From the IMG/VR virus record IMGVR_UViG_3300025598_000103, positions 1 to 33,831 of that record: 33,831 bases of DNA; one strand, 5' to 3'. Below the pieces are notes generated by a model, which saw only the letters and a list, made by a program, of their open reading frames with translations, had not been told where the DNA came from and ran no database searches. Position 1 is the first letter of the stretch. Each line of letters opens with the position of its first letter. A program made the translations under genes and the position numbers. Below are positions 1,178 to 33,095 of this stretch, piece by piece. Origin of the DNA: a virus.

Positions 1178-1205
1178 AGTATAACACAACCACGGTTGGT
1201 GTCAA
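1178..1205 (-). promoter_or_regulatory. Sigma70-type promoter for the CobS-like gene
   Basis: On the minus strand, TTGACA (1205-1200) and TATACT (1183-1178) are separated by 16 bases, about 28 bases upstream of the start codon at 1150. The spacer contains the dyad CAACC-GT-GGTTG, which could be an operator. A small hairpin lies just upstream at 1211-1230. The host RNA polymerase would be expected to use it early. Confidence 0.75.
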
Positions 1206-1210
1206 GTAAG

Positions 1211-1230
1211 TTGTTGTTTATATACAACAA
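1211..1230 (-). other. Hairpin upstream of promoter
   Basis: TTGTTGT, a six-base loop and ACAACAA form a perfect 7-base-pair stem, five bases after the stop codon of the gene ending at 1236. There is no U-run after it on the minus strand, so a classical intrinsic terminator is not supported. Its core GTTGT-N6-ACAAC sits exactly 7 bases upstream of the -35 box at 1205, the same geometry as at 1994-2009. Confidence 0.5.
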
Positions 1231-1235
1231 AGTGA

Positions 1236-1397
1236 TTATTGGTATGTTTCCCTAAGTTTTTGGTAAGCATTTTGGTCTTTTTCAAATCCAGACAATGCTG
1301 CCCACTTTCTGGTAACAATATCTAGTGCTTTCCAAGCAGGAATTTCTGCATCATCTACTTTAGCATTAGCCCAAAAATTCAAATTTTCTTCATTCAT
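1236..1397 (-). CDS. Small conserved-type phage protein, function unknown
   Basis: A 53-residue acidic protein starting MNEENLNFWANAKVDD. The start at 1397 is preferred over an in-frame ATG at 1421 because GGAAG lies at the right distance upstream of it, and the longer form would extend further into the preceding gene. It overlaps the stop region of that gene by 8 bases, which suggests translational coupling. It has Trp and Ala residues but no cysteines, membrane segment or recognisable domain. It is the last gene before the hairpin and the promoter of the CobS-like gene. Confidence 0.65.
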   Translation of the reverse strand: MNEENLNFWANAKVDDAEIPAWKALDIVTRKWAALSGFEKDQNAYQKLRETYQ

Positions 1398-1578
1398 GTT
1401 TACTTCCTTCGTTTTTATCAAAAAATTGTTGCGAAATTGCAGTTGCTAACTCATCCGCAAGATTCGGATTGAATTTTACTAAAAAATATGCGACATCATC
1501 AATAGGTACATGACGTAAATTGAACATAATTTCATCAATTCCTCTCAAAATTTGCGTTTCCTCTTGTCTTTGTAACAT
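1390..1578 (-). CDS. Small hypothetical phage protein
   Basis: A 62-residue protein starting MLQRQEETQILRGID, with a very good ribosome binding site (GAGGAGAT) before the ATG at 1578. It has a predicted helical, mixed-charge composition, no cysteines and no membrane segment. It sits two bases after the 115-residue gene and overlaps the next gene, so the three form one short transcription unit driven by the consensus promoter at 1958-1986. I do not recognise a family. Confidence 0.65.
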   Translation of the reverse strand: MLQRQEETQILRGIDEIMFNLRHVPIDDVAYFLVKFNPNLADELATAISQQFFDKNEGSKHE

Positions 1579-1580
1579 TT

Positions 1581-1928
1581 TTATCTCCTCATGCTCGAAA
1601 TTTCTTTAGCTTCGTTGTCGGTAAACACAGGAACTGCGTTGGATTTGTGCATTGTCGCAACTCCTTTCATTTTTTCGCCAGTATATGTGTTTCCTTCGAC
1701 AGGTTTTGTGCAAGGAACAAATCCGGTGTTCAAGGATTCGTATTTTGGTGTTTCTCTACGATAAGGAGTATTACTTTTTGTTGAAATTGATGATTTTTTT
1801 GCAGGACTTTTTGAATAACTTTTGCCGGCAATTTGATTTAGCGCTTTTGTGAAAGCATCTTTCTGCTCTTGTTGAGCTTTTGATAGTTTTTTAGGCTTGG
1901 ATTTTGGAATGTAGCCGTAAATCATCAT
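1581..1928 (-). CDS. Basic T4-like phage protein of unknown function
   Basis: A 115-residue, strongly basic, Ser/Lys-rich protein beginning MMIYGYIPKSKPKK and ending KEISSMRR. The N-terminal half looks disordered and nucleic-acid-binding in composition. The C-terminal third (KSNAVPVFTDNEAKEISSMRR region) has the look of a conserved module I associate with small proteins of T4-like marine phages; that is memory of a pattern, not a search. AGGAG precedes the start, and a perfect consensus sigma70 promoter lies about 30 bases upstream, so it is likely expressed strongly and early. Confidence 0.7.
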   Translation of the reverse strand: MMIYGYIPKSKPKKLSKAQQEQKDAFTKALNQIAGKSYSKSPAKKSSISTKSNTPYRRETPKYESLNTGFVPCTKPVEGNTYTGEKMKGVATMHKSNAVPVFTDNEAKEISSMRR

Positions 1929-1957
1929 AATAAAACTCCTGTATCAATAGAAGTTCT

Positions 1958-1986
1958 ATTATATAATAATATAGGCTATATGTCAA
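1958..1986 (-). promoter_or_regulatory. Consensus sigma70 promoter
   Basis: On the minus strand, TTGACA (1986-1981), a 17-base spacer and TATAAT (1963-1958) are an exact match to the bacterial housekeeping consensus at optimal spacing. It lies 30 bases upstream of the gene starting at 1928. A GTTGT/ACAAC hairpin sits at 1994-2009, 7 bases upstream of the -35 box. Confidence 0.85.
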
Positions 1987-1993
1987 GTGATGT

Positions 1994-2009
1994 GTTGTAT
2001 GGAAACAAC
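1994..2009 (-). other. Hairpin upstream of consensus promoter
   Basis: GTTGT, a six-base loop and ACAAC form a five-base-pair stem that partly overlaps the TAG stop codon (2009-2011) of the upstream small gene. Its position relative to the -35 box is identical to that of the hairpin at 1211-1230. Confidence 0.4.
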
Positions 2010-31974: not shown

Positions 31975-31999
31975 GTACACGATTACCTAATGATGTCAA
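31972..31999 (-). promoter_or_regulatory. Sigma70-type promoter for nuclease gene
   Basis: On the minus strand, TTGACA (31999-31994), a 16-base spacer and TACAAT (31977-31972) lie 33 bases upstream of the start at 31939. The -35 box lies in the last codons of the preceding gene. ACAAC occurs 7 bases upstream of the -35 box, as in the promoters at 1178 and 1958. Confidence 0.65.
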
Positions 32000-33095
32000 T
32001 ATTTTTGTTGTTTGTCCACACTTCAAGTTCTGTTCTTAATCGGCCCTCTGCTTTGAGAGTTTCATATCTATTTACAGCTTTGTTCCGCCACCATTCAACA
32101 ATGTTTACCAGTTCATGTTTATCATAGTTTTCGCCCTTCTCCAACTTATCGGTTCTACATGCCAACACATCCACGATGTTACTAAAACCATAATCTGATA
32201 CATAATATCTTTTTTTCTCTGTCAACTTCTTAGCGTTCTCAATCGTTAGCAAGAATGCCTCCCCTTCAGAAGTACCTTTAAGTGCTGCTTTAGTTAAAGC
32301 TACTATCTTAGTAAAGGTCCTTAGCTTTCTACTTGTAGTTGATTCATCAATACCTAGAATATCTCCACCAACTTTAGCTTCAACAAATTCTTTCAAATCG
32401 GTATATGTTTTACCATTAATCATCGGTATCATATCAGAATCAGTTAAACCTTTATATCGAATAAATGGTTTCATGCCATCATATTGAGATATTGCTTTAG
32501 TTGAACCATATAAACTGGTAGTTTCAAACAAACACAAATTCATACCATACTTTTTATTTACAATTTCTCTTACAGTATGTGATGTACAAATGGCTGCTAG
32601 TAATTTACCACCAAGATAATTAAAACCAAATGGTTGACTTGGTACAATTACAAAACCCATAATTGTTGAATGATTGAATCGCTTAGCAGTATCTTCATTC
32701 TGTATCCAAACTTGGCCAAGCATTTCATTTCTTGGTTTCATATAGATGACAGGCGAACCCAACCGAATGAATCCTAGAATCTTTCCTGAGTTTCTTTCTC
32801 TGACTGCCAGTTGTATATTTCTTCCAACTGGTGCTTTATTGACATGAGATGATGTAATCGCAAGTAATGTTTCCCAAGTATCATTTGGTATTTCACACAC
32901 TTCTATATCCATATCTTTTGGGTGCATTGTAAAATCTGAAAACAAATCATCTTCAGGTGGAAACAATGAAAACGGTATTTCAGCCACCAATTTCAATTTT
33001 TCTTCTCTCATGTATTGTTCAATGTTTGATGTATCATTAAAATAATCAGCAAACACTTTAGCACAATGAAGTGCATCATCTCTAGTTAATATCAT
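31983..33095 (-). CDS. DUF4338/DruA-like protein
   Basis: A 370-residue protein. The central part, ILGFIRLGSPVIYMKPRNEM (about 105-124), the MGFVIVPSQPFGFNYLGGKLLA segment (about 145-166) and the LYGSTKAISQYDGMKPFIRYKGLTD segment (about 194-218), resembles the DUF4338 fold of the Druantia component DruA (a segment of glycine-rich loop, a YLGGKLL helix and a SLYGS-type turn). The assignment is from pattern memory. No transposase or other Druantia gene is nearby. It lies between the replicative helicase and the nuclease, with a four-base overlap to the helicase, suggesting a DNA-replication-linked function in the phage. Confidence 0.6.
   Translation of the reverse strand: MILTRDDALHCAKVFADYFNDTSNIEQYMREEKLKLVAEIPFSLFPPEDDLFSDFTMHPKDMDIEVCEIPNDTWETLLAITSSHVNKAPVGRNIQLAVRERNSGKILGFIRLGSPVIYMKPRNEMLGQVWIQNEDTAKRFNHSTIMGFVIVPSQPFGFNYLGGKLLAAICTSHTVREIVNKKYGMNLCLFETTSLYGSTKAISQYDGMKPFIRYKGLTDSDMIPMINGKTYTDLKEFVEAKVGGDILGIDESTTSRKLRTFTKIVALTKAALKGTSEGEAFLLTIENAKKLTEKKRYYVSDYGFSNIVDVLACRTDKLEKGENYDKHELVNIVEWWRNKAVNRYETLKAEGRLRTELEVWTNNKNIDIIR

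Follow-up and report, generated by a model that had tools for sequence, protein, structure and literature searches.

The dyad GTTGT-N6-ACAAC is a cis-element that lies at a set distance from the −35 box of the promoter behind it. Its symmetry, the independent variation of its half-sites and its phasing strongly support a role as a protein-bound operator, and its position suggests activation of the class I type. The explanation that we favor, and consider probable, is that the box is the operator of a dimeric class I-type activator at the σ70 promoters of a large T4-like phage group in which no MotA, AsiA or Ogr was detected. In many uncultured T4-like phages, the element and its position rules mark a regulon, and the box makes it possible to predict operons of metagenomic phages from their sequence. 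Cyanophage-type T4-like phages (cyanomyoviruses) lack MotA, AsiA, Alt and Mod, and a review describes their early and middle control as unclear (PMC2984593). A well-defined cis-element that obeys position rules makes this question testable.

Two complete elements in the window

The window, namely the whole stretch of DNA analyzed, is a 33.8-kb virus record in which nearly all genes lie on the minus strand. It contains T4-like replication and nucleotide genes, including those for primase, ribonucleotide reductase, an exonuclease, a DnaB-like helicase and cobS. An earlier note on this DNA had claimed GTTGT-N6-ACAAC, 7 bases, TTGACA and a good −10 box at two minus-strand sites, and the reading proves exact: the elements lie at 1228-1200 and 2009-1981, with the −10 box following after 16 and 17 bp, respectively. 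They are the only two copies of GTTGT-N6-ACAAC-N7-TTGACA in the window (Table 1). The shuffled window gives 0.58 matches to the full pattern, even at 3 mismatches. Transcription would start near 1171 from promoter P1 and near 1951 from promoter P2. P1 probably serves the cobS operon, and P2 the 115-aa gene together with the small ORFs behind it. The upstream ORF ends with a stop codon whose last base is the first G of dyad 2.

Table 1. Coordinates of the two elements, the genes behind them and the rejected third site in the window
Feature	Position	Strand	Basis or remark
Dyad (putative operator) 1, GTTGT-ATATAA-ACAAC	1213..1228	-	Exact match; centre about −50 of the cobS promoter
Spacer 1, 7 bases (AACTTAC), dyad 1 to −35	1206..1212	-	Sequence read; distance 6–8 is the main peak in relatives
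Promoter P1, TTGACA-N16-TATACT, TGn before −10	1178..1205	-	Consensus match; −10 at 1183-1178
cobS-like AAA ATPase (phrog_249, AAA_5), first gene behind P1	11..1150	-	Family matches
Dyad (putative operator) 2, GTTGT-TTCCAT-ACAAC	1994..2009	-	Exact match
Spacer 2, 7 bases (ACATCAC), dyad 2 to −35	1987..1993	-	Sequence read
Promoter P2, TTGACA-N17-TATAAT, 12/12	1958..1986	-	Consensus match; −10 at 1963-1958
115-aa conserved phage protein, function not assigned (phrog_27048), first gene behind P2	1581..1928	-	
Proposed third site, ACAAC-N7-TTGACA half match	31994..32011	-	Rejected as member

The earlier note had also proposed a third member of the set. ACAAC-N7-TTGACA is present there as described, but membership does not hold. 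Specifically, the 5’ half of the site is AGTGT (3/5), giving 8 of the 10 dyad bases overall, and the site lies inside the last codons of a 370-aa gene. Relatives that are up to 94% identical at the protein level differ in this stretch and have neither box. Dyads of this quality (8/10) show a flat, background-level distribution of distances to promoters. The site was rejected as a half match in a coding end, unconserved and with a background-level score.

Loop length, distance to the promoter and symmetry of the box

We analyzed a set of 160 loci (1.32 Mb), which had been picked by homology to two window proteins and not by the motif. Without any promoter demand, GTTGT-N6-ACAAC occurs there in 82 non-redundant copies, compared with 0–7 for the other loops from 0 to 15. 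ACAAC before TTGACA peaks at a distance of 7 bp (52 matches, 20 of them distinct), while the other distances give 0–7, and the full element with N7 is found with loop 6 only. From the dyad end to TTG-N3-(16-18)-TANNNT, 13 distances are 6 bp, 33 are 7 bp, 5 are 16 bp and 18 are 17 bp; these two classes hold 69 promoter matches, against 0.35 per bin in a random-position control. A larger set adds whole motif-bearing records, some chosen for holding the motif, and hence is not unbiased; in it, of 94 exact dyads beside a promoter, 86 stand at 6–8 or 16–17 bp. Most matches with N8 spacing are promoters with consensus −10 boxes. Distance 8 is thus a real variant in other phages, so that the preferred distance differs between phage groups.

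These counts bear on the possibility that the two elements are merely a chance likeness of two AT-rich promoters. Half matches do arise by chance, as the third site illustrates. However, two exact matches to a 16-base pattern in 34 kb, hundreds in relatives and sharp spacing peaks leave this reading with a practically negligible probability, and it is refuted by the excess of loop 6 and by the height of the distance peaks above the control.

The two distance peaks are one helical turn apart and place the dyad centre near −50 (near class) or −60 (far class). No part of the box extends downstream of about −42 (near class) or −52 (far class), which keeps it clear of the −35 box, the spacer and the start. 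In 127 of 159 sites the dyad is preceded by T and followed by A, which extends the box to TGTTGT-N6-ACAACA. Tandem dyads before one promoter, abutting at 16 bp or lying 22 bp apart, occur at G005 27693/27709, G006 87964/87980 and L023 4938/4960.

The earlier note had held that the geometry is kept and the loop and spacer sequences are not, and the regions upstream of cobS bear this out. In the closest relatives the dyad and its spacing are retained; the loop (atataa, atagaa, gtaaaa, caataa or tttttt), the spacer and the flanks vary. A TGTTGC-N6-ACAACA variant is kept upstream of cobS in some relatives. The box lies 6–7 bp from the −35 box in the clade of the window, with a spacer of 6 in L053, L054 and L057, and 16–17 bp away, one helical turn further, in L040, L047, L059, L063 and L066. 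Far-class promoters have weaker −35 boxes (TTGACT, TTGCCA, TTGTGG) and a conserved A/T-rich stretch, AAATAATGC, between the box and −35, which appears to resemble a proximal UP element.

A palindrome beside strong consensus promoters would look the same if it were the operator of a repressor, and such promoters do not obviously need activation. A repressor operator nevertheless seems improbable, since the box lies upstream of the −35 box, the spacer and the start and not over them, and since the one-turn spacing and the weaker −35 boxes of the far class fit activation better.

The earlier note had suggested two roles: termination of the upstream gene, linked to a fresh promoter behind it, or binding of a phage early-promoter activator. 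The first idea, or any other RNA hairpin, is very unlikely. The sequence is foldable, and both dyads stand right after stop codons in the window. However, the two 16-mers, with a 5-bp stem, fold with only −2.5 and −2.9 kcal/mol, neither window dyad is followed by a U tract or is among the terminators predicted for the window, and an Rfam search gave no match. The distance is fixed to −35 and not to the stop codon. Furthermore, the inner stem pair is T/A in 104, C/A in 39, T/G in 14 and C/G in none of 159 sites. One side of the stem changes often and both never, which points to dimer-like half-sites and not to a stem under selection. An intrinsic terminator and an RNA or cruciform hairpin were rejected for lack of a U tract, weak folding and lack of compensatory stem changes. 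Loop sequences are found in either orientation, as with TTCCAT and ATGGAA. Of the two ideas, the activator binding site has the better support, given the fixed distance to −35, the two positions one turn apart and the hundreds of instances in related phages.

Distribution of the element and the genes behind it

Further instances, which the earlier note had proposed to seek and whose absence would have counted against its reading, are abundant. IMG/VR holds at least 120 stretches with the exact element at N7, at least 120 with N8, and at least 120 with a stricter pattern that includes the −10 box. The stricter pattern has only 4 matches in 84,980 bacterial and archaeal species genomes (257 Gb), about the chance level, and the four matching genomes hold 1–3 dyads each. 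Perfect TATAAT is present in 60 of 106 N7 matches, although the IMG/VR N7 scan did not ask for a −10 box. Among 414 non-redundant motif promoters, which were partly selected by promoter score, the −35 box is TTGACA in 291 and the −10 box is TATAAT in 266. Relatives of a T4-like protein set are encoded by 160 of 168 motif loci.

No dyad is present in the named phages HTVC008M, P-SSM2, DSL-LC02, P2 and T4, and Melnitz has one; no motif promoter was found in the named phages checked, and a 58-base promoter query against named phages returned nothing convincing. A literature search for the box sequence returned no described site. PhaR, which surfaced in this search, was rejected since its motif differs.

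Among the gene families that follow the motif, that of the 115-aa protein comes first (55 of 364), ahead of cobS (44), a phrog_459 peptidase (31) and SWIM zinc-finger proteins (25). Many small ORFs also follow the motif, as do what look like tRNA clusters. SWIM-type zinc-finger proteins with varied N-terminal parts stand directly behind motif promoters at L061:5113, L174:3425, L239:4750 and L457:4722 (motif coordinates).

Two further features were seen among the 414 motif promoters. An extended −10 (TGn) is present in 165, often within GGTTGTGTTATAAT; P1 of the window is among them. A boxA-like leader, TTGTTCTTTAAAAA, lies just downstream of the −10 box in 41 (L173, L202, L205, L232, L264, L368, L385, L387 and others). 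Ribosomal RNA leaders carry a similar sequence, so that the feature may hint at antitermination and at the identity of the host group.

Candidate binding proteins and proposed mode of action

In the explanation that we favor, a sequence-specific dimeric protein would occupy TGTTGT-N6-ACAACA, and the bound dimer would help host σ70 RNA polymerase to start at the adjoining promoter. The dimer would act from the upstream face of the helix in class I style, probably contacting RNA polymerase through the alpha C-terminal domain. Two operons, those of cobS and the 115-aa gene, would be served in this way in the window. The timing of the regulon may be early or middle, where "early" is a guess. The explanation is supported by the conservation of the box upstream of orthologous genes and by its concentration in T4-like phages. 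Against it, −35 and −10 boxes in the near class often match the consensus and such promoters should need no activator, a centre near −50 is not a classical CRP position, and the best candidate for the binder, A1 (see below), is missing from G022, G023 and G086.

Three known systems resemble the element in part. The activator box of P2 Ogr, P4 Delta and 186 B is centred at about −55. It likewise is a dyad upstream of σ70 promoters, in a similar place, and a GTTGT (or ACAAC) half-site is present in the late promoters of P2. The consensus of this late-promoter box is TGT-N12-ACA (PMC3931495), which TGTTGT-N6-ACAACA formally contains. However, GTTGT-N6-ACAAC has no copy in P2, the motif promoters combine a good −35 box with a dyad at either of two positions, and the Ogr_Delta profile (PF04606) matches none of 27 records searched, with a positive E. 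coli control. In T4 middle promoters, the MotA box replaces the −35 box. The T4 MotA/AsiA system is similar in that a phage-specific box marks off σ70 promoters of T4-like phages, but the MotA box stands in the place of −35, and the MotA (PF09114) and AsiA (PF09010) profiles match only T4 among 20 records. CRP/FNR-type class I sites, TGTGA-N6-TCACA, lie at −61.5 and further turns. These sites, with the NtcA boxes of cyanophages among them, share the two 5-base half-sites, the 6-base gap and positions one helical turn apart; the half-site sequence differs here, the nearer position is −50 and the binder is putative.

Ogr, MotA and AsiA were rejected as binders because, MotA and AsiA in T4 apart, their profiles have no match in the 27 (Ogr_Delta) and 20 (MotA, AsiA) records searched. 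A2, an HTH_39 winged-helix protein, was rejected because it also occurs in box-less phages, e.g. G010, Melnitz and HTVC008M. A comparison of BLAST families in 10 motif and 3 non-motif genomes yielded no protein family separating the two groups.

A1 is a small family of about 115 aa with ~55 unique relatives (e.g. L059:2076-2423, L305:6952-7377 and G017:C1:27550-27894). Neither Pfam nor PHROG contains a match to the family, nor do 50,697 named phages. AlphaFold with 25 sequences predicts three helices and a beta hairpin (H-H-H + beta hairpin), with AF2 block pLDDT mostly 73–92 for residues 11–90. The structural neighbors are winged-helix DNA-binding domains, namely BirA (best, Z 8.3), PadR and Fur-like proteins, and the predicted fold of A1 is a winged helix.

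Where a record has at least three exact dyads, A1 accompanies them in 16 of 21 cases; G010-G013, G036, G038, G040, G043 and five named phages, all with 0–1 dyads, lack A1. Furthermore, a dyad lies upstream of some A1 genes (L059, L069, L207 and L416). On the other side, G019, G021-G025, G086 and many further motif records lack A1; some of these are fragments, whereas G022 (160 kb), G023 (170 kb) and G086 (193 kb) are long. G014 has A1 and no dyad, and the winged helix is a common fold. A1 appears to track the box inside the cobS clade, but its presence follows phylogeny, so the association is confounded. We regard it as rather doubtful that the phage-encoded A1 family is the regulator, even in the cobS clade only. 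A broader reading is put forward tentatively: T4-like phages without MotA and AsiA may run the regulon through a phage-encoded winged-helix activator of an undescribed family that acts from two phased positions, while in distant phages the regulator may be a related one or may have been replaced. The regulon would include cobS and the genes for the 115-aa protein, the phrog_459 peptidase and a SWIM zinc-finger protein, as well as the tRNA clusters.

Alternatively, a regulator of the host may bind the box, the phages exploiting the host protein. This and the A1 reading are sub-cases of the favored explanation, the one difference being the source of the protein. A host regulator would agree with the occurrence of the box in distant phages (G022, G023 and G086 share only 17–18 ORFs with G005, at ~33% identity) and with the lack of a phage protein family that divides box-bearing from box-less phages. 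G010 has no box though it is nearer to G005 (69 shared ORFs at 61%), a pattern compatible with a regulator that depends on the host, with exchange of the regulator or with loss. The presumed use of NtcA boxes by cyanophages (PMC3037559) provides a precedent for reliance on host regulators. Against a host regulator stands the near-chance frequency of the full promoter form in the cellular genomes, with few dyads in those that match, although that scan would miss host regulon promoters with a weak −35 box. Because A1 is missing from distant box-bearing phages, a host regulator stays a serious rival, a real possibility though less than an even one.

In G005, the terminase large-subunit ORF (locus L433:9325-9711) is interrupted after KCPRQVGK; the sequence that follows, CFQLNTPIRLKNKKTGEIIETTVGEF, resembles the beginning of an intein.
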